Shown piece by piece: positions 1 to 12,380 of a DNA stretch of 26,090 nucleotides; position 1 is the first letter of the stretch, and each line of letters opens with the position of its first letter. The notes under the pieces were generated by a model, which saw only the letters and a program-made list of their open reading frames with translations, did no database searches and had not been told where the DNA came from. The position numbers and the translations under genes are program-made. Source of the DNA: a virus. Location of the stretch: the IMG/VR virus record IMGVR_UViG_3300025697_001088, positions 1 to 26,090 of that record; one strand, given 5' to 3'.

Positions 1-1480
1 CCACTCCTGTATCTTTTACTAAAGAAGCATTAGTAATAGCCCATCCTGTTTCGCCACCAATATATCCATCATCTGCAACGACAGTCCCTTTTACTGTAAA
101 AGTTGTCCCATCCCATGATATACCTTTTACTAAAGCACCAACCGCAACCGATCCTACCCTGAACTTATAAACAGTATCTTTTCCCATCCATATACCGTTG
201 CCTACTAAATATCCTGTAGGCAATGTTGATCCCATGGCAAAGGAAGGAGTAGTAGGGCTTAATAATACCGTATTGACTGCACCATCATATAATTTAATGG
301 TAAGGTTATGCCCCTCGATAGCTTGATCACTTATTCTTAAATACTGGCTTGCATCTAATATCCCGTTACCAGCATATAATCCAAATTCATTTGCCACACT
401 AAAAATACCATTCAGATTTCCAAGGCGTGTACGAACCGTTTGTCCTGTAGCTGGGTGGGCTGCCCATGATACTATTTGATGATAAGGGGAGTTCTCTGCC
501 ATATCTCCATCAATAGCATTGCTTTCAAGAAATCCGTTACCTGTTGTCCCATAATCTAAGGCAAGTGCTCCTATTGCTATTGTCGTTGCTGCTGTTGCGG
601 CTCCTGCATTAGGGGCTGCTGATCTTGTAAAGTTATATGTTTGCGTTTTTGCAGTTGTATCAGTAGACACCCACGCAACTGTCCCCCAACAGTCTGTGAT
701 ATCTAAAGCTGTTCCTGTACGACTAAATTGACGTAACCTAATAATATCCCCATCTACAAATACTTTAAAAGAATCAAATCCTATAAATGATTCCACTACC
801 AGTGTAGCTACTGCTGATGCCGCTGGAACCGTAAATACTGCTGCCAATGGGGCAACTGATTTACTTATTATCTGGCCTCCTGCAAGAGCTTGCTCCAAGT
901 CAGCGGTAAAGGATTTTGCATGTAGCTCCTCTGTATAGATATACCTAAAATCCGCTGCTCCAGCGTGGCTTATCCTCCATCCAGTTAGCTGACTTACATA
1001 CGTTTCGGAAGCAACATTCCCATAAAGATCAATACCTGCATTAGTAGTTGCTAATTTAATATCTGTTTCTGCTGCACCATAGTATAGATAACAAGCTGCA
1101 CTTCCTATTCTCATCAATGCGGAAGCACTACCTAAAGCATTACCATTAGCGCCAAAGTATAAATAGCCATCTGCTGTTGTTGCCCATAGATAATTAGCAG
1201 AGGCTCTGGTCATTTGTATTGCATGCCCTTTAAATTGTGTATTACCAGAAGTTCCTTCTATTACAACCGTTCCTGTAAGTGTAGGACTATTAGATAATGC
1301 TACCTTGGAATTTGTCGTCCCTGTTGTCCCTGTTACAGCGTTAAGATAATTAAGCTGTGTCCCTGTAGTACTAACCGGAACTATTCCTATTATAAAAGAA
1401 GGCATCTTGACCGGAAAGCCAAATACGGGGCTCTCTAAGGCCAGTAACGCTGCGGATATCAATTTTGTTGGTACTTCCAT
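1..1480 (-). CDS. Tail-fibre / tail tip protein, N-terminal part (runs off left edge)
   Basis: The minus frame is open from an ATG at 1480 to base 1, giving 493 codons with no stop, so the C-terminus lies outside the window. I translated it by hand. Residues 38-59 carry the low-complexity motif TGTQLNYLNAVTGTTGTT, followed by SPTLTGTVVI, which is the style of repeat found in phage fibre shafts. Later parts have VRTRLGNLNGIF, FGLYAGNG and YKFRVG...WDGTTFTVKG, a pattern seen in the distal regions of phage tail and host-specificity proteins. It is rich in Gly, Thr, Ala and Ser with few charged residues. It starts 5 bases after the stop of the upstream gene, so it shares that transcript. Role inferred: distal tail fibre or receptor-binding protein. 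The same shaft motif recurs in the fibre gene at 11289-12380. Confidence 0.75.
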   Translation of the reverse strand, partial: MEVPTKLISAALLALESPVFGFPVKMPSFIIGIVPVSTTGTQLNYLNAVTGTTGTTNSKVALSNSPTLTGTVVIEGTSGNTQFKGHAIQMTRASANYLWATTADGYLYFGANGNALGSASALMRIGSAACYLYYGAAETDIKLATTNAGIDLYGNVASETYVSQLTGWRISHAGAADFRYIYTEELHAKSFTADLEQALAGGQIISKSVAPLAAVFTVPAASAVATLVVESFIGFDSFKVFVDGDIIRLRQFSRTGTALDITDCWGTVAWVSTDTTAKTQTYNFTRSAAPNAGAATAATTIAIGALALDYGTTGNGFLESNAIDGDMAENSPYHQIVSWAAHPATGQTVRTRLGNLNGIFSVANEFGLYAGNGILDASQYLRISDQAIEGHNLTIKLYDGAVNTVLLSPTTPSFAMGSTLPTGYLVGNGIWMGKDTVYKFRVGSVAVGALVKGISWDGTTFTVKGTVVADDGYIGGETGWAITNASLVKDTGV

Positions 1481-1484
1481 TATC

Positions 1485-2597
1485 TTAATCGTTTATAATA
1501 TAATTTCCACTTTCATCTACTAAATAAGTAATACCATCTTCATCTACAATAAAAGTATAAGAAGAATCTACAATCTCTGGGGCCGGCACTTCTGGCTCTT
1601 CGACAATCGGACTTTCCTGATCAATAAATTTCTCAATCGTTTCAATCAGGAACCACTTTGAAGGATCTTCGCTGCTCCTCCCAATAACCTCTACTGTCCT
1701 TACCTCTTCCCCACCAAGATTAACAGTAATTTTAAGTGAGTTATTAAGAGATATCTGCTCATTAGCGAGCCCTGTGGATGTTTCTTCCTCTGCCTGTGGC
1801 AAAGGTACAATACTAGCAGGAGAAAATGTGCTTTTCCTCCAATCCATGTATATATATCGGTAAGAAATCTGAAACAATGTCTGTTGTAAATTGTTTATCT
1901 TCCTATTCTCCTGTGCTTCATAAATTACTATCGGAGGCATTTTAGGGGGAGCAGGAGCAAAATAGAAGTTTTCAATATTCATGGAATAATACGCTTCTTC
2001 AATAGAACACAATTCCTCCCACGTAACCCCTGCGACATCAAATCTCGGTTCTATATTAATATTGTAAGCTTTTGCTTTATAAAAACGAGTCCCGTTTGAT
2101 ACAATTTCATACATACTATAAGTCACCAAGCGATTCCATTCTTTTGTATTAGGAAAATAACCATAGCCAATGCCATACGCAACAGAGTTTTTAGCTCTCG
2201 CAATATCCATCTGATAAACAGGATTTTTATTATCCGTCCATATAAGTTTACCATGTACGACTTTTGCGTTATATATTTTATACAATTGATCGAAGCCTAT
2301 GTTATTATCCCTATCATAATAAACAACTGTCTGTGTGCGATCATCAATATCTATTTCAATGATCCATGATGCGCCATAATGAATATCTATATAAAAAACA
2401 TAGAGTTTTCTATTCTCTGCATCGATACAGTTACCGTTTAATAATATATTGGTTACATGGGATTCCCTCTCTGGATTAGCTGCCCCTGTCTCCTTTATAA
2501 ACCTTACAGAATGGAAATGTGATTTCAGCGCAACCGATTTGGTTGTTACTGCACTATTGTATGCAACTGAGAAATATTTCGCTAAATTATTACTCAT
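1485..2597 (-). CDS. Tail muzzle/stabilisation-like protein, C-terminal portion (second half of a split gene)
   Basis: This 370-residue protein starts at the ATG at 2597, whose A overlaps the TAA stop of the upstream gene (TAATG), suggesting translational coupling. A longer reading from a TTG at 2621 is possible but less likely. Near residues 60-145 it has NGNCIDAENRKLYVFYID, then SWIIEIDI and GKLIWTDN.NPVYQMDI. I recognise this as the block of crAss-like and other Bacteroidota podovirus tail stabilisation/muzzle proteins that says, in effect, 'event, readout, WTDG.NPP..I'. In those proteins it follows an N-terminal NTD..L....Y..ALN.RIGSSD motif, which here sits in the preceding gene. The C-terminal third is acidic and ends in a short repeat-like Thr/Val/Asp segment. 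Role inferred: part of the distal tail assembly. The family assignment is from memory of motifs. Confidence 0.6.
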   Translation of the reverse strand: MSNNLAKYFSVAYNSAVTTKSVALKSHFHSVRFIKETGAANPERESHVTNILLNGNCIDAENRKLYVFYIDIHYGASWIIEIDIDDRTQTVVYYDRDNNIGFDQLYKIYNAKVVHGKLIWTDNKNPVYQMDIARAKNSVAYGIGYGYFPNTKEWNRLVTYSMYEIVSNGTRFYKAKAYNINIEPRFDVAGVTWEELCSIEEAYYSMNIENFYFAPAPPKMPPIVIYEAQENRKINNLQQTLFQISYRYIYMDWRKSTFSPASIVPLPQAEEETSTGLANEQISLNNSLKITVNLGGEEVRTVEVIGRSSEDPSKWFLIETIEKFIDQESPIVEEPEVPAPEIVDSSYTFIVDEDGITYLVDESGNYIIND

Positions 2598-4684
2598 TAT
2601 GTTGAATATATATTTTCCCAATCCGTGTCTTCTATCCCTGCAAATCCAGTAGGTGTTAACTCATGATCTATCTTATAGGCAGTACCCCTTATCTCATGTC
2701 TGTATTCTGCAACTCCGCTATCTATGTCTATAAAGATACTATCTTCTTCTGCGTTTATGCTCACTATTGATTTATCCCATGTAACGCCCCCGTCATCTGA
2801 GTAATCCATGTCGTACTGATATCCTCTAATCCCTTTCCGATATACAGTAAGCCCATCAGTTAGTGTGACTTTTAAATCAAAAATATCGCCTTCAGGGGTA
2901 CTTGTCTGTATTAAACATTTTATAACATTCTCATTCTGTTGTGGGTTGCCTGCTATCGGAGTAAATGTAACACCATTATTTGTTGAACGGTGTATATCAG
3001 CCTGATGAGTACCAGATTCTTTAACAACAGCTAAGGCTATAGTATCAGTAACTTTAATAGCGTTTCCACAATCTCCCGCAAATTGGAGTGTCTTAGTGTA
3101 AGAAACAAAATCGTCATCGGTATAACACCAATCATAATTACAAATATATCCTATTCTCCCCGAACCAAGTATTACCATTTGGAAAATTGAATATGCTCCA
3201 TTTGGGTAAAAATAACCTAAATCACTCCAGCTAGCCCCAGAGTTAACACTTTTCCATATATGACCACTTGTATCTCCTGCGTATATTACTCCGCTTCCTG
3301 CATCACAAACAGCGGTCCAGTTTCCTAAAGGCCCATTCACTGCCTGATATCCATCATTTTCAACACTTAACAAATATTCATCTGTACTAAAAATAAATAA
3401 ATCATCTCTTATGTTAATTAAAGCATATGGGCTCCCAGAAAAGGAACCCTGTGCTCTTTCTGTCCAACTATCCCCATCGTTACTTGAATAAAAAAGTTTT
3501 TGATTTGGAGAGTCGGTTACTACCATTACATTGCTTGCATTTGAAGCGATTCCTACTATACCAACATTATCAACTAAGATACTGGTTGATTGTGTATAAT
3601 TAACGACATATCCAGTATCAGTTCCGTAAAGTACATCTTCATTGTCGAGTTTAGCAAAACAAGTCGGATTGCCTACCCCTGCACTACCTTCGCTTGTAAA
3701 AATAACACCATCGTCAGTAGATTTTAGTATCAATCCAGAAGGAGCTGTCCCTGCAAGTAAAGCAAAATCTGCTACATCGGTAATTAATGTTATTTCATTT
3801 GAACTCTCACCGTATCCTATATCATTATATGCTCTAACCCTATAATAATAAGCTGTACCTGAAGCAAGTCCCGTAACCTCATAAGCTAAGACATCGCCTA
3901 CATCCAAATCCTCATAGCCAACAATAAAGGAAGCAAATATAGCACTCGTAGATACGTCGAGTCTATACCCATCAGCACCCTCTGAAACCTCCCATAATGC
4001 GGTAAATGCGTCTACCAAAATATCCGTAGCATCAAGAGCTATTGGAGGCAATGGAGTCCCCTCTTCCTGCAACCAAAATAACCCCATCTCCTGTAATAGA
4101 TCAAAGGCAGCATCATACTTTCCTCCCGGTAATGCTTTGAATCCGCTTGAATTATCTGCACCTGTATTTGGTGTGAGCCAATGATCCGTCCATGGCTCTT
4201 TCATTGGTCCTCCTGCGATTAATGCGCCTCCAAGAAATGTCAATAGTTCATCAATATCTGCCTCAACAGGGATGCGCCATCCTTCGGGAGCAAAATCCAT
4301 TCCCATTGCCTGATCCCATGAATAAAGTCCTCCATAGATAGCCCTGTAATCTTCATCATCACCATAAACCTTGCTTCCAGCGTAATCTCCATCCCAATTC
4401 TTCTTCATCCATGTCTGACTGCCAATAGCCACTTCTTCATATCCGGAGTAAACAAACTGACCTCCAATAGCTCCTCCATAATAATAAAAAAATTCTGTGG
4501 TAACATCTATAAGAACAGGAATCTCCCCCTGTAATGTCTCTGCTCCTAAGTTTTCATTTTGAGTATCACTGCTCCCAATCCTTAAATTTAAAGCATCTGG
4601 ATAGTCATTCTCAGGCATTAACACAGGAGAATCATCCGTATTAAGCCCCCCTATTAGGCGTTTTATGTTTTTAAACTTAGTCAA
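2597..4684 (-). CDS. Muzzle-type N-terminal arm fused to FISUMP, Fn3 and BNR-propeller domains
   Basis: This 695-residue protein starts at TTG (4684); an in-frame TAA lies immediately upstream, so no longer start exists, and the next ATG (residue 23) would cut into a conserved motif. Residues 10-45 contain GGLNTDDSPVLMPENDYPD and ALNLRIGSSD, the N-terminal signature of Bacteroidota phage tail stabilisation/muzzle proteins. Residues 82-208 are a FISUMP domain (Fibrobacter major paralogous, TIGR02145 type): VAIGSQTWMKKNW, GLYSWDQAM, APEGWRIPVEADIDELL, GFKALPGG. Residues 212-303 are fibronectin type III (YYYRVRAYNDIGYGESSNEI). Residues 305-600 repeat S.DDG..W-like units (FYSSNDGDSWTE, IWKSVNSGASWSDLG, HRSTNNGVTF), a BNR/sialidase-type propeller. 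The C-terminus contains DYSDDGGVTWDKS. It ends in a TAATG overlap with the next gene. Probable role: an ornamented tail component that contacts the cell surface. Confidence 0.7.
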   Translation of the reverse strand: MTKFKNIKRLIGGLNTDDSPVLMPENDYPDALNLRIGSSDTQNENLGAETLQGEIPVLIDVTTEFFYYYGGAIGGQFVYSGYEEVAIGSQTWMKKNWDGDYAGSKVYGDDEDYRAIYGGLYSWDQAMGMDFAPEGWRIPVEADIDELLTFLGGALIAGGPMKEPWTDHWLTPNTGADNSSGFKALPGGKYDAAFDLLQEMGLFWLQEEGTPLPPIALDATDILVDAFTALWEVSEGADGYRLDVSTSAIFASFIVGYEDLDVGDVLAYEVTGLASGTAYYYRVRAYNDIGYGESSNEITLITDVADFALLAGTAPSGLILKSTDDGVIFTSEGSAGVGNPTCFAKLDNEDVLYGTDTGYVVNYTQSTSILVDNVGIVGIASNASNVMVVTDSPNQKLFYSSNDGDSWTERAQGSFSGSPYALINIRDDLFIFSTDEYLLSVENDGYQAVNGPLGNWTAVCDAGSGVIYAGDTSGHIWKSVNSGASWSDLGYFYPNGAYSIFQMVILGSGRIGYICNYDWCYTDDDFVSYTKTLQFAGDCGNAIKVTDTIALAVVKESGTHQADIHRSTNNGVTFTPIAGNPQQNENVIKCLIQTSTPEGDIFDLKVTLTDGLTVYRKGIRGYQYDMDYSDDGGVTWDKSIVSINAEEDSIFIDIDSGVAEYRHEIRGTAYKIDHELTPTGFAGIEDTDWENIYST

Positions 4685-4709
4685 TTAGCTTGTGTTTTTA
4701 ATTGTTTCT

Positions 4710-4892
4710 TCAAGGCTGATCGCTGTTGTGCTTTTTCACTTGATTTTGTAACTTATCCGAATGGTGCCTGTTTTTCGATAAATCTCTTAAATGCTTATCC
4801 CATCGTTCAGATATATTAATAGCACTCCCAATATAAATTCGTTCAGGTTTAATCTTACTTTGTATTTGATATATTCCAGATTGTCTTTTCAT
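4710..4892 (-). pseudogene. Truncated GIY-YIG homing endonuclease
   Basis: The 60-residue product has the two defining motifs of a GIY-YIG nuclease: SGIYQI near residue 5 and YIGSAINISERW near residues 20-31, including the conserved Arg and a following H..L......H...LQ helix. Intact GIY-YIG domains run to about 90 residues and need a catalytic Glu in a later helix. Here a TGA stop comes right after KKHNSDQP, so the Glu and any DNA-binding tail are absent. No continuation is visible in the other frames before the next gene. The start ATG overlaps the upstream stop by 4 bases (ATGA), so it is still in the operon. Such enzymes spread as free-standing homing genes in phage genomes. I infer a decayed or remnant copy, probably inactive as a nuclease. 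Confidence 0.75.
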
Positions 4893-5659
4893 CTTTTTGG
4901 AACCTGTGTATAACTCTGGTATAGCATTCTAAGGTACTCATCTGCCGTAAATATCGATTGGAATGAGGTTAATGCAGCAACAGATTCTTCGTGCTCCCTC
5001 TTTGCCCTCTCCTTTGTATTGTAAGCCACCCTATTGTCATTCTCAATAGATGACCATATAATATACGACCTAAGTGCGGGGATGGCTTCTCTTGGCACCA
5101 GAGAGGATCCATCTGTCTTCAATCCACTACTCAAATATTCAAGAACAATTTCTCCTCTGTTAATGGGTCCGGAGAATGCTATCTGCCCTTCTTCTCTGTC
5201 TATGCGGAAAAAATTAGTATCGATGCCACCAGGTAAACCATACAATCCCCCAACATAAGCTCCATTTTTAAAATGGTCTGAGAAAAAGATTGAATTAGAT
5301 ATGCCCTCCTCATCTCCACTATCCGTATTCCCTACTTCCGTTCCATCTTCAAACTCCCTTGGGAGTAGTATGCTGTCATTTTTTGTTATTACCCTGAGTT
5401 TTCCGTTAATTGGTATTCCAATTTTCAGCCAATCCACATAATCGCCAGGCAAATCAACAGTCTTCCCATCACTCATACGTAAATATACGACTTCGAGTGA
5501 AGATAAGTGCCATAATGAAAGTTCACCGAAGCCCTCTATTCCCAACTGTACATAGCGTTTATAATTACGCATCGTATAATCATTCATCCTGTTCAGAATA
5601 CTCATAACGATATATCTCATCGTTACTAACCCACTTGTCTTTGGCGAAACTAAACTCAT
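4889..5659 (-). CDS. Head-to-tail connector / tail ring protein (podovirus type)
   Basis: This 256-residue protein begins with an alpha-helical segment, then RYVQLGIEGFGELSLW (35-50), then VDLPGDYVDWLKIGI (68-82). The combination 'G...L', a short beta segment and LP.DYV.(Y/W).KIG is a signature I associate with ring or tail-tubular proteins of crAss-like and Cellulophaga podoviruses. The C-terminal third has LVPREAIPALRSYIIWSS and a helix rich in Glu and Lys (NTKERAKREHEES), which fits a connector that packs around the portal axis. It lies directly before the muzzle-like genes and after two other connector-like genes, matching the order expected for neck assembly. It starts 5 bases after the previous stop. 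The assignment to a connector rests on motif memory and context. Confidence 0.6.
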   Translation of the reverse strand: MSLVSPKTSGLVTMRYIVMSILNRMNDYTMRNYKRYVQLGIEGFGELSLWHLSSLEVVYLRMSDGKTVDLPGDYVDWLKIGIPINGKLRVITKNDSILLPREFEDGTEVGNTDSGDEEGISNSIFFSDHFKNGAYVGGLYGLPGGIDTNFFRIDREEGQIAFSGPINRGEIVLEYLSSGLKTDGSSLVPREAIPALRSYIIWSSIENDNRVAYNTKERAKREHEESVAALTSFQSIFTADEYLRMLYQSYTQVPKR

Positions 5660-5663
5660 CTGT

Positions 5664-6314
5664 CTATTGTATTACTTTATCATTCGCAATATCCGGTGCT
5701 TGTTTCTTACTCATAAGATCAATTACCTGACGTACTAAAATATCATCAGCCATACCGGGAATAACTATATCATCATAATCATCCATCTCTTCAATCGGGA
5801 CTATCAGCATAACATCAATACTTGCTATCTCCCCCACCGTGACAGGTAATCTCTCAATCTTTAACATGTGGCTCTCTTCTCCGGCACCTGTACTTAGGCT
5901 GTTTTGTTCGAGTCTGTATGTAGGAGTTGAGTCCATAGCATCCACATCCAGTTCAGCAAACACCACGTTTGCCGTTGCTTCTATGGGGGCAAATACATTT
6001 GAAGTATCATCATGGTCAGCAACTTGTCTAATTCCGGCTCCATCAGGCAATTGCATTGGAGCAAATGGGAGTAAAGCATTGGCAACGAGTCCTACCTGTG
6101 TCTCCATCTCAATCTCATACGTCTTGCTCCAAGAGTCCAACTGGCTGAAATCACTGAACTTCTTCCCATTCTGCCATGCGTTAAGCACTGTCTGGTTAAA
6201 AGCATCGGACAAATGTACCTTGACAATCTCAGGATGATACTTTCCCTTTCTGTCTCCGGCCTGATCTCCCTCAAACCAATCGATCACTGCGTCAACAATA
6301 TTTTGCTTCTTCAT
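5664..6314 (-). CDS. Structural protein of the neck/tail block
   Basis: This 216-residue acidic protein is the middle gene of a run of three (232, 216 and 256 residues) between the membrane-protein cassette and the muzzle genes. It starts with MKKQNIVDAVIDWFEGDQAG. Residues 30-75 form a likely helical segment (VHLSDAFNQTVLNAWQ). The C-terminal part contains MLIVPIEEMDDYDDIVIPGMADDILVRQVIDLM, cut here into LIVPIEEMDDYDDIVIPG and the following helix; this 'IVP.E...D...(I/M)P.G' strand-helix pattern recurs in structural proteins of Bacteroidota podoviruses as I remember them. No enzyme motif is seen. The start ATG is 1 base past the previous stop. Virion connector or ring component is inferred from position and pattern; the exact role is unknown. 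Confidence 0.55.
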   Translation of the reverse strand: MKKQNIVDAVIDWFEGDQAGDRKGKYHPEIVKVHLSDAFNQTVLNAWQNGKKFSDFSQLDSWSKTYEIEMETQVGLVANALLPFAPMQLPDGAGIRQVADHDDTSNVFAPIEATANVVFAELDVDAMDSTPTYRLEQNSLSTGAGEESHMLKIERLPVTVGEIASIDVMLIVPIEEMDDYDDIVIPGMADDILVRQVIDLMSKKQAPDIANDKVIQ

Positions 6315-6315
6315 A

Positions 6316-7014
6316 TTATCCTTGTTTTTGCTTTAATCCTGAATACTGCACAATATCTGACTCCCTAAGATTAACTCCAATATATTCAAGAATCATCCGA
6401 ATAAGAACGATATCCTCATCTTGAGGCCACTCAAATTCTACTGAATTAGTAGCATCATAAGTTATGTACCCATCTCCTGTTACATATACAAATGAAGGTT
6501 CTCTAGGCCATCTCCAATAATAAAAGTCAACACTGGTAATTGTTTTGGGATAGATATAAATACCATCCTGCCTCATTACGCCTATCGGATCCTTCACTGT
6601 AGGCCGTTTGGTGTAGTTTCCCCTGCGTTCTGCTGCTTGGGCATCTCTTAGTATCTCTACAGGACGTGGAAGCTCTGTGGCTACCTTATTGATTGTTTTA
6701 GAGTATCTATAAACAACAGTATCCCTATGAGCATAATCAGAAGGATATGGGAGAACTCCACCTGTCACAGGAGTATTTGAAAGATCCATCTTAAAGGCTT
6801 TCATGTCGTCCGTATTCTTTATCGTTATGTCGATGTGCTCAACCGGAACAGGACTACCGGGACTATACCCCTCTGGCAATCCATACTTCTTTCTATACAG
6901 GTCGATGTTGACAACTTTTATGAGCAATTTAAACCTCTCGGGAGTTATAATATTTCCAGCGAAATCTTTATTGCAGATGAAGCGTAATAATTCGTATGAT
7001 TCGAATAAGGTCAT
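6316..7014 (-). CDS. Connector/ring-like structural protein
   Basis: This 232-residue protein has an N-terminal helical part (FESYELLRFICNKDFAG, TPERFKLLIKVVNIDLYRKKYGLPEGY) and a beta-rich C-terminal part with DLSNTPVTGGVLPYPSDYAH, then VEILRDAQAAERRGNYTKRP, MRQDGIYIYPKTITSVDFYYWRWP and a closing helical segment (DEDIVLIRMILEYIGVNL). The LPYPSDY followed by a 'R...R..NP' type strand and (I/V)YP....V.FYY...P is a pattern of podovirus tail-tubular/ring proteins from Bacteroidota. It opens the three-gene neck block and follows the lysis-like cassette by 16 bases. The ATG at 7014 fits the family length. Function as a neck component is inferred, not shown by a catalytic motif. Confidence 0.6.
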   Translation of the reverse strand: MTLFESYELLRFICNKDFAGNIITPERFKLLIKVVNIDLYRKKYGLPEGYSPGSPVPVEHIDITIKNTDDMKAFKMDLSNTPVTGGVLPYPSDYAHRDTVVYRYSKTINKVATELPRPVEILRDAQAAERRGNYTKRPTVKDPIGVMRQDGIYIYPKTITSVDFYYWRWPREPSFVYVTGDGYITYDATNSVEFEWPQDEDIVLIRMILEYIGVNLRESDIVQYSGLKQKQG

Positions 7015-7030
7015 CTTATTGATTTTTTAA

Positions 7031-7162
7031 CTAATGTGTTTTATATAAAATAACTATTACTCCTATAGCCACTATTAAAAGAATCTCAACCCACCAACCA
7101 ACTATAAATCTAATCGGTGTCTTAACAACTTGAAATATCTTAAACTTCGTTTCCATTTTCAT
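7031..7162 (-). CDS. Small single-pass membrane protein
   Basis: This 43-residue ORF has a charged N-terminus (MKMETKFKIFQVVKTP), then one long hydrophobic span (FIVGWWVEILLIVAIGVIVI, about residues 19-38) and a short basic end. I choose the ATG at 7162 because it overlaps the TGA stop of the upstream gene (ATGA) and lies 8 bases after a strong ribosome-binding sequence, AGGAGGGAGG at 7171-7180. A second in-frame ATG at 7156 is too far from that site. It is the third gene of a run of small membrane proteins, consistent with a lysis or membrane accessory role. No family recognised. Confidence 0.65.
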   Translation of the reverse strand: MKMETKFKIFQVVKTPIRFIVGWWVEILLIVAIGVIVILYKTH

Positions 7163-7838: not shown

Positions 7839-10565
7839 CTATTTTGTTATACTAATTTTATCGTTAATCATTATAAATTTATTACCCCTCATGTTGATCG
7901 TCTGGACAGAAGTAGTAAAGCTCTCTTGCGACCCATAACTTGTTCCTTCTGAATTTGTGGCATAAGCCCGGATATAATAAAGAGTATTACTACTCAACCA
8001 CGACAAGACACAAGTAAATGCCCCTGTGCCACTTCCCGCAGGTACTATATTGTCGGATGTGGTGGGAGTTTCTGACGTTGAATAACATACGCCCCTAGTC
8101 GTCACAGAGCTTCCTCCATCGCCTGTTACGTTACCGCCCACGGCAGCATTAACAGAAGTATAAGTAGGTGTAGCCGTTGTTACGGTAGGAGCTGTTACTG
8201 CAACTTGATTTGATATTGTAATCACCTCGTCATCATATACCTCTGAACCATCAGATGCAGTGGCTCTAACAGTAACCGTGCCATCAGTGACAGCCGTAAT
8301 TGTACTGTCAGCTATAGTAGCAGAACCAGTTCCATTAGTTACTGTCCACACATGATTAGGATTTGAGGCATTTGTGGGAAGAGTAGCTGACTGCATTACC
8401 AATGAGCCATTATCTACAGTAATAGTAGTGGCTGCTCCGGCTCCACTTACCGTTATATTGGTAACAAGGATTCCAGCATCTTCAGTAACAGTACCATCTC
8501 CAAAAATTACCTTTGACGTAAAAGGAGTCAGGGTAAAAGTTGTAACAGTGGTCCCATCTATGTCCTCCATTACTCCCGTTGACGGTGTAGCTGTAAAATT
8601 TTTATCAACAAATGTATCATTGTACTTAAAGAAGAGTTCGTCCATACTCGAAGCTGAATAGTCTGAGGCTGTGGAGCTCTCTCCATAGTCGCCATCTCCA
8701 TCAAATTTTGATTCAAAACCAGCCAGATTATAGTAATTATACCCACCTCCCCATGCTTCGTCTATATTCATTATATATGAGTCAGTATTACCATCAATTA
8801 CTATCGGGTAGGCATGTTTATTATCATCGATAGAACCCTGCCTATATGTCTGGTCAGAGTAAGGATCTGTAAATAGAGGCAAGTCTGCTGCTCCAAGCTT
8901 TGAAGCCAAGGTCATTGTAAAGGCACGATCATAGCTACGATTCATATTATTTGTAAAATTACCTGTCACTAAAATATTATCATTAATAACATGGCCTCTT
9001 GCTCTGCCATCAACCGGAGCACTCTCAGAAAATACCAAGATACCCATTGCAGCATTAAAAACTGTATTATTAGTTACTGTAGCTTCCTGACATGAATTAA
9101 TAAATAAGCCGTGTCCTCCACAAAAAGCAATTGAGTTGCTGTCTATGGTAACAAGATCATCTCCATCTGTATATATACCATTTGCTCCGGTCCAATCTTC
9201 TTCGTCAACACCATTTCCAAGGCCGTAGGGTTGAGATGTTACGTGCATTATAATATTGTGCTTGATCTCTTTACCATGTTCACGACCTCTGTAAGAATAC
9301 ATTCCTCCACCATCTCCGGCATTAAGACAAATAGAGTCTAGGAAGTTCCATGAAATATCCATATCCTCTCCGGCCCACCTGATACCGTCATAACCACAAT
9401 GGGTAATTCGGCTCCTGGTTATTTGTGAATAATCAGCTTCAAGATGTACTCCTATCATATTATCCCATCCTGGCTTTCCTAAACCTATAGAATAACCTGA
9501 CCTTGTAATTGTATCATTACTAATAGTAGTATAGCTACAGTCATCTGCAAATATTCCAATATCATTCGAGTCACTTATATTGCTTTCATCTATGGTAATA
9601 TGGGTGGATGAGCTATTTGCTAATACACCGTACTCCCCTGAGTATTGAATTTCACAATTATTAACATCAACATAATCACAACCCGTTATTGTGAGGTTAG
9701 CATAATTAGCTCCTTCTATTCTTAAATTTTCAATTATGATATAATCAACATTATCCACTATGACTGCTTCGTCCCTTGATGCCGATGCAATTACATGGTT
9801 TGTTGGGCTATCAGCACAATAGATATAAATTACATCATCAATTATTGCCCAATCTCCATCCTGTACAAGAAAGTCAATGTGATTTTGTAGAAAGTATCCA
9901 TAGCCGTCTGGTGGTTGATCCATACCACTAAATGTTATTACAGTTCCACTAATACCACTTATTTGTCCTACTCCATTTCCTCCTTGATGAATACGAGCCA
10001 CTATTTCAGCCTCAACACCAGCATCACCTAAGTCAGAAGGAAAACCTAAAGCACCCATCTCATCATCATCCACAGTCGTAGATGACCAACTTTCTCCTAT
10101 GGGGACATCACTAGGCCAATTATAATACTGAGACATATAAGGGAACCTTCCTTTGGGTCTGTTTTCATCATCGAAGACAAATACATTAGGATTAGTTTCT
10201 GATGTAATCGCTTTATGGTATATGTTGCTACCATCTGATGTCCAGCTAGTCAATACCGTGAATCCTGATATTGTAGGGAGAGCACCTGTGCCATAGTCCC
10301 CATAATAAATTTCATTGCCACTTGTCCCTGAATTATCAATAGTTAATGTTTCATACCAAACATCACCACGTTTGAATAATACACTATCACCGGGAGAGGG
10401 GGCCTGAGTATTAACATAAGTTATTGTTGCCCATGCCAAAGCAGTAGTAAGTCCTGAGTCACCGTTATCGCCATCAGAGCTGCTAACATAATAGGTCTCT
10501 GCATTGGCTATCGAGCCTATAAACAGCAATAATATAAATAAGTATCTTTTCATAATTTTATTCAT
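7839..10565 (-). CDS. Secreted right-handed beta-helix protein with Ig-like and Fn3-like C-terminal domains
   Basis: I place the start at the ATG at 10565, which lies 7 bases after GGAGGG (10573-10578); a GTG at 10580 is also in frame. The product of 908 residues begins with a clear Sec-type signal, MNKIMKRYLFILLLFIG, ending SIANA before ETYYV. Then comes TYYVSSSDGDNGDSGLT and GDSVLFKRGDVWYETL, the usual entry of parallel beta-helix (pectate-lyase-like) proteins, and a long run of N-x-I/V-x-N rungs (roughly residues 240-640: NCEIQYSGEYGV, NSIAFCGGHGLFI, NTVFNAAMGI). After that are a bacterial Ig-like domain (about 710-800; VTVRATASDGS) and a Bacteroidota Fn3-like domain (TTRGVCYSTSETPTTSDN, YYIRAYATNSEGTSYG). 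Likely a glycan-binding or depolymerase tailspike, though a signal peptide is unexpected for one. Confidence 0.75.
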   Translation of the reverse strand: MNKIMKRYLFILLLFIGSIANAETYYVSSSDGDNGDSGLTTALAWATITYVNTQAPSPGDSVLFKRGDVWYETLTIDNSGTSGNEIYYGDYGTGALPTISGFTVLTSWTSDGSNIYHKAITSETNPNVFVFDDENRPKGRFPYMSQYYNWPSDVPIGESWSSTTVDDDEMGALGFPSDLGDAGVEAEIVARIHQGGNGVGQISGISGTVITFSGMDQPPDGYGYFLQNHIDFLVQDGDWAIIDDVIYIYCADSPTNHVIASASRDEAVIVDNVDYIIIENLRIEGANYANLTITGCDYVDVNNCEIQYSGEYGVLANSSSTHITIDESNISDSNDIGIFADDCSYTTISNDTITRSGYSIGLGKPGWDNMIGVHLEADYSQITRSRITHCGYDGIRWAGEDMDISWNFLDSICLNAGDGGGMYSYRGREHGKEIKHNIIMHVTSQPYGLGNGVDEEDWTGANGIYTDGDDLVTIDSNSIAFCGGHGLFINSCQEATVTNNTVFNAAMGILVFSESAPVDGRARGHVINDNILVTGNFTNNMNRSYDRAFTMTLASKLGAADLPLFTDPYSDQTYRQGSIDDNKHAYPIVIDGNTDSYIMNIDEAWGGGYNYYNLAGFESKFDGDGDYGESSTASDYSASSMDELFFKYNDTFVDKNFTATPSTGVMEDIDGTTVTTFTLTPFTSKVIFGDGTVTEDAGILVTNITVSGAGAATTITVDNGSLVMQSATLPTNASNPNHVWTVTNGTGSATIADSTITAVTDGTVTVRATASDGSEVYDDEVITISNQVAVTAPTVTTATPTYTSVNAAVGGNVTGDGGSSVTTRGVCYSTSETPTTSDNIVPAGSGTGAFTCVLSWLSSNTLYYIRAYATNSEGTSYGSQESFTTSVQTINMRGNKFIMINDKISITK
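10524..10540. repeat. 17-bp direct repeat, copy 1 (in signal-peptide codons of the beta-helix gene)
   Basis: CAGCAATAATATAAATA on the + strand is identical to 11266-11282. Both copies code for the hydrophobic core of the signal peptide (LFILLL) in consecutive genes and lie in the same reading register, so part of the identity could be shared coding constraint. Confidence 0.85.
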
Positions 10566-11292
10566 AAGGTGTCCCTCCACTTGCTAACCATGACCTTTCA
10601 GCACTTGATATTGCTTTTCCCCAAACACCTACTTTCTTAATACGACCACCTAAAAACTCATTACCCGTATCCCCTCCAATAAACATAGTAGAAGGATTAA
10701 TACTTGTATATGCGTCCTCGTTTGCACTGCCAGCCGCAATATTATTCCTATAGAAAGTAATCACCTCTGCATCCTTTACCATGATAACAGAGTACCACGT
10801 ACTTGCGGTCCACGTTACTGTAGTCCCTTCAGTAGCCACACCACCTATATACCAACGCATTTGATAGTCTGGTGGGGTATCATCACCTAAGTAGAACGCC
10901 CAACCGTTATAAGTACCCATAATGTTCTTCGCTGCTGCCGTAGAAACATCTGTTAAGTAGATAAAGGCAGAGACCGTAAAATCACCTGCTCTAGTAACAG
11001 CCCAATCAGCATGATCAGGCAAGGTGATAAATTCATCTACAGCATCACAAGCAAATCCATCGGTGCTATAAGTACCATTTGTAGCCGTTGAGTTATGAGC
11101 ACTCTCAGTATCTACAATAGTTCCACTCTCTTCATGAATATCATACCATGATATTAGACTTGTCTGTATAGTAGCAGGAGCAGATGATCCACTTGCAGTT
11201 CTCTGACTTGAAATAATTGAAGTAAATAGATCCTGACCGCTTAACGAGATAGTCAGAAATATAGCCAGCAATAATATAAATAGTTTTTTCAT
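10558..11292 (-). CDS. Secreted LamG / concanavalin A-like lectin domain protein
   Basis: The 244-residue product starts at the ATG at 11292, which overlaps the previous TGA (ATGA) and lies 8 bases after GGAGGG at 11301-11306. A longer ORF reaches back to 11316 but lacks such a site. It opens with a Sec-type signal peptide (MKKLFILLLAIFLTISLSGQ). The rest is one LamG/laminin-G-like jelly roll: SLISWYDIHEESGTIVDT, GFACDAVDEFITLPDHADW, FTVSAFIYLTDVS, WYSVIMVKDAEVITFYRN, FIGGDTGNEFLGGRIKKVGVW, ending GGTPYE. These domains bind glycans or cap larger adhesins. It sits between a fibre protein and a beta-helix protein that also carry signal peptides. Its last codons GGA GGG ACA form the ribosome-binding site of the next gene. 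Role inferred: glycan-binding accessory of the adsorption cassette. Confidence 0.75.
   Translation of the reverse strand: MKKLFILLLAIFLTISLSGQDLFTSIISSQRTASGSSAPATIQTSLISWYDIHEESGTIVDTESAHNSTATNGTYSTDGFACDAVDEFITLPDHADWAVTRAGDFTVSAFIYLTDVSTAAAKNIMGTYNGWAFYLGDDTPPDYQMRWYIGGVATEGTTVTWTASTWYSVIMVKDAEVITFYRNNIAAGSANEDAYTSINPSTMFIGGDTGNEFLGGRIKKVGVWGKAISSAERSWLASGGTPYE
10573..10578 (-). promoter_or_regulatory. Ribosome-binding site inside the end of the LamG gene
   Basis: GGAGGG lies 7 bases before the ATG at 10565 and decides that start over the GTG at 10580. It is also the Gly-Gly codon pair of the upstream protein's C-terminal GGTPYE. Confidence 0.7.
11266..11282. repeat. 17-bp direct repeat, copy 2 (in signal-peptide codons of the LamG gene)
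   Basis: Identical to 10524-10540 (CAGCAATAATATAAATA on the + strand), 742 bases apart. Recombination between the copies would fuse the LamG signal peptide to the beta-helix protein and delete the LamG gene. Confidence 0.85.
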
Positions 11293-12380
11293 TCCATTGT
11301 CCCTCCAATATCCCACCTGTCATTACCACAATATTTAGCAAAAGCCCATCCGTATTGAGTATTTAGATAAAGCGAATCTAATGGTGCATGGATAGTTACT
11401 CCTGCACCTTCAGCAAAATGAATTATTCCAGCTCCGCACATTTCAAAGTAAACTACTTGCTCCTTAACGAAAGCTACATCAGCATTAGGAGGTATTGTAA
11501 TCTCGATAACTGTTGCCTTTGTTAGATATAATCTTCTACCTGCATCAGTTAATACTAATGTATGTGCATCTGTATAGGCAGCCGTATCTGGGAGTAGTTT
11601 AACATAATAATCATCACCATCTATAGCATCCGCAGCCGTAAAATAAGTATCAAGCATATCTGCCGTATCTGCATCCGTTATTATTCTGGCACTTGCATTA
11701 GGTAGTGTAAATGTTTTCTCTGCTGCTAATGGCCCGGTGAACTTAGTAAATCCATTGCCCGTCCCTCCGTAAGCAGACCCTATGATCTGAGTCAGGGCAG
11801 CACTTCCGTTAAAGTTATTGCCGTAAATTGCTCTTGTTGTAGCCAATACCGTTGCTTTCCCTGCAGTAAGACTTGTTGCTGTACCTGATATATTAGTCCC
11901 AATTAATGCTGATGGAGTACCGAGTGCCGGAGCTGTTAAAGTGGGAGAAGCACTATAGACAAGGTTTGTTGTTGTCGTTCCAGTAGTTCCTGTGGCTGCA
12001 TTAAGATAGTTGAACTGCGTACCCGTAGATGTTACTGATACCGCACCTAATGTAAATGGAGTAGGTATTACTACTGTTCCAGTGAATGTAGGTGATGCTA
12101 CTGGTGCAGCCCCAGCCCAGGTCAATACCCCACTGCCGTTCGTAGAGAGAAACTGCCCATCAGTCCCATTTGTGATAGGAAACTGAAAGATTATTCCCGT
12201 CCCTGCCACATCTGCTACTTTTATTTGCGCAGTGCCACTTGTCGTCCCATATAAGGTGATAGACCCTGACGATGTACCCACTTTCCCTACATAGAGAGGA
12301 TAAGTGTAGCTGTTAGTGTATTGCGAAAATATTGCAATACTCATAAATACCGTAATCAATGTTAATAGTATCTTTTTCAT
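11289..12380 (-). CDS. Tail-fibre-like protein with a Sec-type signal sequence
   Basis: This 363-residue protein begins MKKILLTLITVFMSIAIFSQ, a textbook Sec signal sequence. Residues 75-150 are shaft-like: GQFLSTNGSGVLTWAG, ASPTFTGTVVIPTPF, and STGTQFNYLNAATGTTGTT (117-139), a motif also present in the fibre gene at 1-1480. The middle has TSLTAGKATVLATTRAI and GSAYGGTGNGFTKFTGP, both common in phage tail-fibre repeats. The C-terminal 100 residues have VIEITIPPNADVAF, GAGIIHFAEGAGVTIHAP, TQYGWAFAKYCGNDRWDIGG, the widespread C-terminal module of phage tail fibres ('P......G..V.f...GAG.iti....GvtI....l..qY...l...g.d.W.l.G'). It ends GGTME* with an ATGA overlap into the next gene. The signal peptide on a fibre is the odd part. 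Confidence 0.75.
   Translation of the reverse strand: MKKILLTLITVFMSIAIFSQYTNSYTYPLYVGKVGTSSGSITLYGTTSGTAQIKVADVAGTGIIFQFPITNGTDGQFLSTNGSGVLTWAGAAPVASPTFTGTVVIPTPFTLGAVSVTSTGTQFNYLNAATGTTGTTTTNLVYSASPTLTAPALGTPSALIGTNISGTATSLTAGKATVLATTRAIYGNNFNGSAALTQIIGSAYGGTGNGFTKFTGPLAAEKTFTLPNASARIITDADTADMLDTYFTAADAIDGDDYYVKLLPDTAAYTDAHTLVLTDAGRRLYLTKATVIEITIPPNADVAFVKEQVVYFEMCGAGIIHFAEGAGVTIHAPLDSLYLNTQYGWAFAKYCGNDRWDIGGTME
11301..11306 (-). promoter_or_regulatory. Ribosome-binding site inside the end of the fibre gene
   Basis: GGAGGG lies 8 bases before the ATG at 11292 and selects that start for the LamG protein. It encodes Gly-Gly of the C-terminal GGTME of the fibre protein, the same arrangement as at 10573-10578. 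Confidence 0.7.

Follow-up and report, generated by a model that had tools for sequence, protein, structure and literature searches.

A podovirus tail muzzle probably encoded in several pieces, with variable accessory domains at the cuts

Two overlapping genes near one end of a metagenomic virus record raise the question of whether a tail muzzle, the nozzle that gates the tail at its tip and a conserved single chain in crAss001, can be encoded in separate pieces loaded with extra domains. We analyzed the whole 26,090-base record (hereafter, the window), in which these genes (gene 1 and gene 2) had been predicted to be one muzzle divided between two polypeptides. The window phage is related to marine Bacteroidota podoviruses. 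Its closest cultured relatives by terminase are ctfjg026 (about 33% identity) and the Flavobacterium elemo phages (about 29%), and on account of these nearest terminases its host is likely to be a member of the Bacteroidota. As a reference we used phi38:1 gp097, a single-chain muzzle of 1,324 aa whose residue numbering is followed throughout, together with an HMM built from seven single-chain muzzles. In hhalign comparisons, gp097 matches crAss001 gp44, the muzzle solved in PDB entries 7qok, 7qol and 8ckb, over residues 1-161 (residues 1-159 of gp44; E 1.5e-5) and in the C-terminal part (residues 1049-1332 of gp44; E 5e-9). The crAss001 muzzle is a hexamer in which a ring-joining domain is combined with a seven-bladed propeller, a pair of IG domains and a crass fold; IG1, at residues 163-292 of gp44, separates propeller blades 2 and 3, and muzzle length varies through insertions into the IG2 and crass regions (PMC10172136). 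The features of the locus are given in Table 1.

Table 1. Coordinates of the two muzzle genes, their parts and the gene downstream of them in the window
Feature	Position	Strand	Remarks
Gene 1	2597..4684	-	695 aa, TTG start; muzzle N-terminus followed by accessory domains
Muzzle arm, ring-joining N-terminus	4511..4684	-	aa 1-58; phi38:1 residues 1-46 aligned
FISUMP (Fib_succ_major)	4058..4432	-	aa 85-209; Pfam E 6.6e-19
Fn3 domain	3788..4045	-	aa 214-299; Pfam E 1.1e-6
BNR/propeller-like region	2900..3673	-	aa 338-595; sub-threshold Pfam and BLAST
TAATG at the gene 1/gene 2 junction	2595..2599	-	stop and start codons overlap by one base
Gene 2	1485..2597	-	370 aa, ATG start; phi38:1 residues 68-280; 40-aa tail
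Muzzle residues 68-154	2187..2435	-	aligns to crAss001 gp44 before IG1, i.e. early propeller
Putative CBM5/12 (chitin-binding-type) insert	2004..2150	-	tentative; aa ~150-198, flanked by muzzle residues 155 and 169
Muzzle residues 168-280	1626..1958	-	E 3.6e-16; IG1-equivalent by position
Fibre-like gene	2..1480	-	493 aa or more, incomplete at the contig end; directly downstream of gene 2

Gene 1 does open with a muzzle arm, as the original prediction had it. The match is short (about 46 residues), scores 17.9 bits against the single-chain-only HMM, where 500 shuffled sequences reached at most 3.4 bits, and has an E value of 1.4e-4 when the window's own record is searched. The reciprocal search agrees. 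An HMM built from the gene-1 arms and run against 5,346 six-frame ORFs retrieved the gene-1 arms; ranked below these, the only other sequences to pass the inclusion threshold were N-termini of single-chain-type muzzles, namely those of L017, ctfjg026 (its first piece), Gundel_1 and phi38:1 (1e-5 to 0.0075). As for the domains proposed for the rest of the protein, FISUMP and Fn3 are recognized by Pfam, and the BNR matches stay below its threshold (BNR_2 0.0098, Sortilin 0.058), the region being common to the window and gene 1 of L002 at 40.5% identity. Gene 1 is adjoined upstream by a truncated GIY-YIG homing endonuclease gene (4710-4892, minus strand, 60 aa, Pfam 1.4e-7); an intact 270-aa GIY-YIG/NUMOD3 gene occupies this position in L011, and in L004 a GIY-YIG gene is located between two ring genes.

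The junction of the two genes is exactly as predicted, with gene 2 starting on the last base of the gene 1 stop codon. Gene 2 has no Pfam match. It aligns to the single-chain muzzle HMM with an E value of 4.8e-21 and matches PHROG 14478, a virion structural family that, judging from the crAss001 alignment, would contain the muzzle of podoviruses of the Cellulophaga type. A conserved insert of about 50 residues stands at its propeller/IG1 junction and is a locally better-predicted stretch of an otherwise low-confidence model. Foldseek relates this stretch to ChtBD3 domains (target TM score 0.55-0.68 over about 46 residues), and the orthologous insert of L013 has a sub-threshold Pfam match to CBM_5_12 (E 0.0033). 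Since a PDB profile search with the insert did not support the CBM5/12 identity, the resemblance to a chitin-binding module is tentative.

Three ring-like genes (4889-7014), two of them with PHROG matches, precede genes 1 and 2 in the window. The order of muzzle after ring genes is similar in phi38:1, Panino, Gundel_1, phi13:2 and crAss001, and the synteny of capsid, ring proteins and genes 1-2 agrees between the window and its relatives. Further upstream, three genes (7839-12380, minus strand) have signal-peptide-like starts, e.g. MKRYLFILLLFIGSIANAETYY and MKKLFILLLAIFLTISLSG, which are unusual for virion proteins; two of the three have relatives in L002.

Relatives were obtained by scanning IMG/VR with gene 2, and eight distinct ones reach gene 1: L002, L004, L007, L008, L011, L013, L014 and L015 (L003, L005 and L006 repeat the L004 sequence; L012 and L016 repeat that of L011). 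The first split is kept in all eight, at 52-64% identity, with gene 1 immediately upstream of gene 2 in every case. Behind gene 2 the relatives have a phrog_644 gene of about 140-150 aa followed by a third muzzle gene, which is present in the seven out of seven whose contigs reach that far; the window has the fibre-like gene instead. The third gene encodes 881-1,009 aa (the contig end cuts the L007 copy), has a PHROG match, and its profile matches the muzzle from residue 288 almost to the C-terminus with an hhalign E value of 6.1e-36, the corresponding values being 1e-7 for the arm and 6.6e-19 for gene 2. Because the window contig ends in the fibre-like gene, a third piece is predicted for it from the relatives. 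We followed the fibre-like gene to one contig, L035, which belongs to another phage type and is without a muzzle.

Placed on the single-chain HMM, the pieces of the clade tile the muzzle almost without overlap or gap: the gene-1 arms cover residues 1-56, gene 2 covers 60-286 (in one member the match begins at residue 49) and the third gene covers 286-1213. The claim that two polypeptides do the job of one is therefore superseded by a muzzle in three pieces, with everything from about residue 286 onwards encoded downstream of gene 2 and a small gene. Gene 2 had been taken for the whole block missing from gene 1; it does carry residues 68-280, and roughly 1,000 further residues lie in the third gene of the relatives. 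Each muzzle segment was found once in the records of the window and seven relatives, some of them incomplete, and hence no second or intact muzzle was seen in these eight records. Homology to the muzzle family thus spans the arm, the early propeller and the IG1 region in the window, and the C-terminal parts in the third gene of the relatives only; where the family has a single polypeptide, there are two genes in the window and three in the relatives. PDB sequence searches with the pieces returned no muzzle. The AlphaFold models were poor (pLDDT 52 for gene 2 and 43 for the third gene of L014), and Foldseek searches with them gave no significant match for the propeller, IG and crass folds and did not return the crAss001 muzzle. 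No relative of the third gene turned up when contigs of prokaryote genomes were scanned with it. We also observed that a ring protein of L013 (6944-8023) contains an inserted domain of about 100 residues that resembles an insert in the third gene of L004 (12191-15166), an insert absent from L002; the domain is apparently a mobile decoration common to two different tail proteins.

Could the first two genes still be read as one fused polypeptide, through programmed frameshifting or stop readthrough? The reading frame of gene 2 would permit it, as it stays open ahead of the ATG and reaches back across the end of gene 1. The spacing at the junction, however, varies between -8 and +9 nt in the nine members, with three showing a gap instead of an overlap, and the nine share no slippery site, an X-XXY-YYZ heptamer occurring in one of them only (L015). 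These observations argue for separate coupled genes rather than a frameshift, and the third piece would be left out of any fusion, as another gene stands in front of it. We therefore regard a fusion as very unlikely; with start and stop codons that overlap or directly adjoin, the genes are presumably translated in a coupled way. Still harder to believe is that the split reflects gene decay or a mistake in assembly. The window does come from a metagenome and breaks off close to the locus, with a truncated GIY-YIG gene just upstream, yet the split is shared by eight distinct relatives on other contigs, their frames are intact and their cores are conserved.

The explanation we consider highly probable is that the clade descends from a phage with a single-chain muzzle gene of the kind seen in phi38:1 (gp097) and crAss001 (gp44), and that this gene was interrupted at two loops. 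The first cut would separate the ring-joining arm from the propeller, after about residue 56; the second would fall at about 283/286, near the end of IG1, a placement made by position only since the alignment stops at crAss001 residue 159. Gene 1 would then provide the arm, gene 2 the early propeller and IG1, and the third fragment, beyond the contig edge here, the rest, with the three chains most likely folding together into one muzzle. Each cut would leave a free C-terminus that hosts exchanged modules (FISUMP, Fn3, BNR, Lcl_C, LRR, BACON, Ig-like) and may carry them outwards, so that the co-assembled pieces would display binding domains. To go by the domain names, these modules probably bind polysaccharide or protein of the host surface. 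One may prefer to see gene 1 as a fibre or adhesin anchored to the tail rings by a muzzle-like arm, leaving gene 2 and the third gene as an armless muzzle, given that only about 46-58 residues of gene 1 are homologous to the muzzle and that most of the protein consists of accessory domains that vary among relatives. We find this improbable: gene 2 and the third gene have no arm, no other copy of the arm occurs in the records searched, the arm ends on the muzzle about where gene 2 starts, and the two genes are neighbors in every relative.

The content of the cuts fits the muzzle in pieces with modules on its new C-termini. Accessory domains sit on the C-terminus of the upstream fragments and differ among relatives. 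FISUMP is present in gene 1 of every relative and is thus not a recent cassette; the variable content begins after residue ~210, with Fn3 and BNR in the window, Fn3, an Lcl_C-like domain and BNR in L002, Lcl_C in L004, LRR in L007, Fn3 and a second FISUMP in L011, Fn3 and Lcl_C in L013, Lcl_C and a second FISUMP in L014, and a second FISUMP and Fn3 in L015. Gene 2 ends in 40 unrecognizable residues in the window, in an Fn3 array in L002 and L013, in one Fn3 in L014 and in BACON in L011, and has no assigned domain at its end in the remaining relatives. With core and cassette boundaries set by a simple motif rule, all 28 pairs have matching cores (mean 57% for gene 1 and 65% for gene 2), whereas the cassettes match in 17 of the 28 pairs for gene 1 and 9 for gene 2. 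Fn3 copies at the first and second cuts resemble each other, which fits shuffling between sites. The idea that a domain cassette entered the gene and created the junction is upheld as far as the split gene, the restart and the surface-type domains at the break are concerned; it does not hold for the timing, as FISUMP and the split are old and fixed in the clade and the variable part comes after residue ~210. In L008 (8163-10004), gene 1 is itself made of two ORFs, one with arm, FISUMP and Fn3 and the next with two Lcl_C domains, the break falling at a domain boundary.

FISUMP and DUF1566/Lcl_C have been reported as targets of diversity-generating retroelements, DGRs (PMC4159848), and we considered for this reason that gene 1 might be a DGR variable protein. 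This was rejected, as neither a reverse transcriptase nor the repeats were found: there was no RVT_1 in five clade records, several of them fragments, and no repeat of at least 30 bases that could form a template/variable pair within positions 1-7100 of the window.

Cuts are also found elsewhere in the muzzles of Bacteroidota podoviruses. One at about residue 1076 occurs in phi13:2, ctfjg026 and L041. In the Baltivirus phi13:2, gp120 covers the muzzle to about 1076 and continues with Big_9/cadherin-like domains, and gp121 covers 1078-1321; both are annotated as structural proteins by similarity to phi8:3, the split being unremarked. The annotations of the Cellulophaga phages reportedly derive from a proteomics paper. 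In ctfjg026, a gene labelled "putative glycosidase" lies between the two muzzle pieces. About 13 further contig groups have a cut at about 1165-1230, where a first gene reaches to that point and a piece of about 110 aa covers residues ~1225-1322 (E 1e-4 to 7e-14). An accessory gene of about 450-900 aa separates the two in nearly all of these groups; L072 has a very long first muzzle gene instead. In the unannotated records L048-L068 and L072, the genes of about 110 aa that follow large accessory genes are C-terminal muzzle pieces. In a quick muzzle tree made from partial columns, the window clade forms a monophyletic group with a long branch, and the cuts at ~1076 fall on separate branches among uncut relatives, which suggests that muzzles were cut several times independently. 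The muzzle of Maribacter phage Panino (L010, 7521-11434) is annotated as two ORFs, and its HMM match shifts frame at about residue 951, which is either a real break or a sequencing frameshift.

Four cut regions are thus seen (~56, ~283, ~1076 and ~1165-1230). A core part of the tail seems to have taken on a second use, that of a stand on which such domains are displayed. We lean towards the view that cutting the muzzle at propeller and IG loops, with exchangeable receptor-binding modules on the C-termini, is a general and repeatedly evolved strategy of Bacteroidota podoviruses, which would make the tail-tip gatekeeper itself, and not just separate fibres, a modular host-recognition platform of several chains. 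If the muzzle still works when cut at several loops, these loops define sites for foreign binding domains on the tail tip. This would also explain why its pieces are annotated as hypothetical or structural proteins with no relation to one another, and would open the way to testing whether host-surface recognition is a task of the gatekeeper. Cultured phages with a comparable split, such as phi13:2, offer a direct experimental system.

Muzzle insertions and split phage enzymes are known already; a split muzzle with domains at the cuts seems to be undescribed, as we found no account of one in the open-access literature. Like the muzzle of the window clade, crAss001 gp44 follows ring genes, and its N-terminus and early propeller align to the single-chain relatives, but it is one chain of 1371 aa, whereas the clade is cut at about 56 and, in the relatives, about 283, with domains on the new C-termini. 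The muzzles of phi38:1 (gp097), Tenacibaculum phage Gundel_1 and the Flavobacterium elemo phages (phrog_14478) are homologous, and all three clade pieces map to them; there, in contrast, the muzzle is single-chain. Aeromonas phage Aeh1 encodes one enzyme as separate functional chains, nrdA-a and nrdA-b, which are unspliced, with a homing endonuclease as the intruder (PMC3653736). One protein is likewise encoded as separate chains here, but the intruders are display-type domains and genes in a structural protein rather than a homing endonuclease in an enzyme. In phi13:2 (gp120/gp121) and ctfjg026, too, the muzzle is divided between two genes, and the break is marked by accessory domains or an accessory gene; the difference is in the place of the cut, about 1076 as opposed to about 56 and 283 in the window clade.
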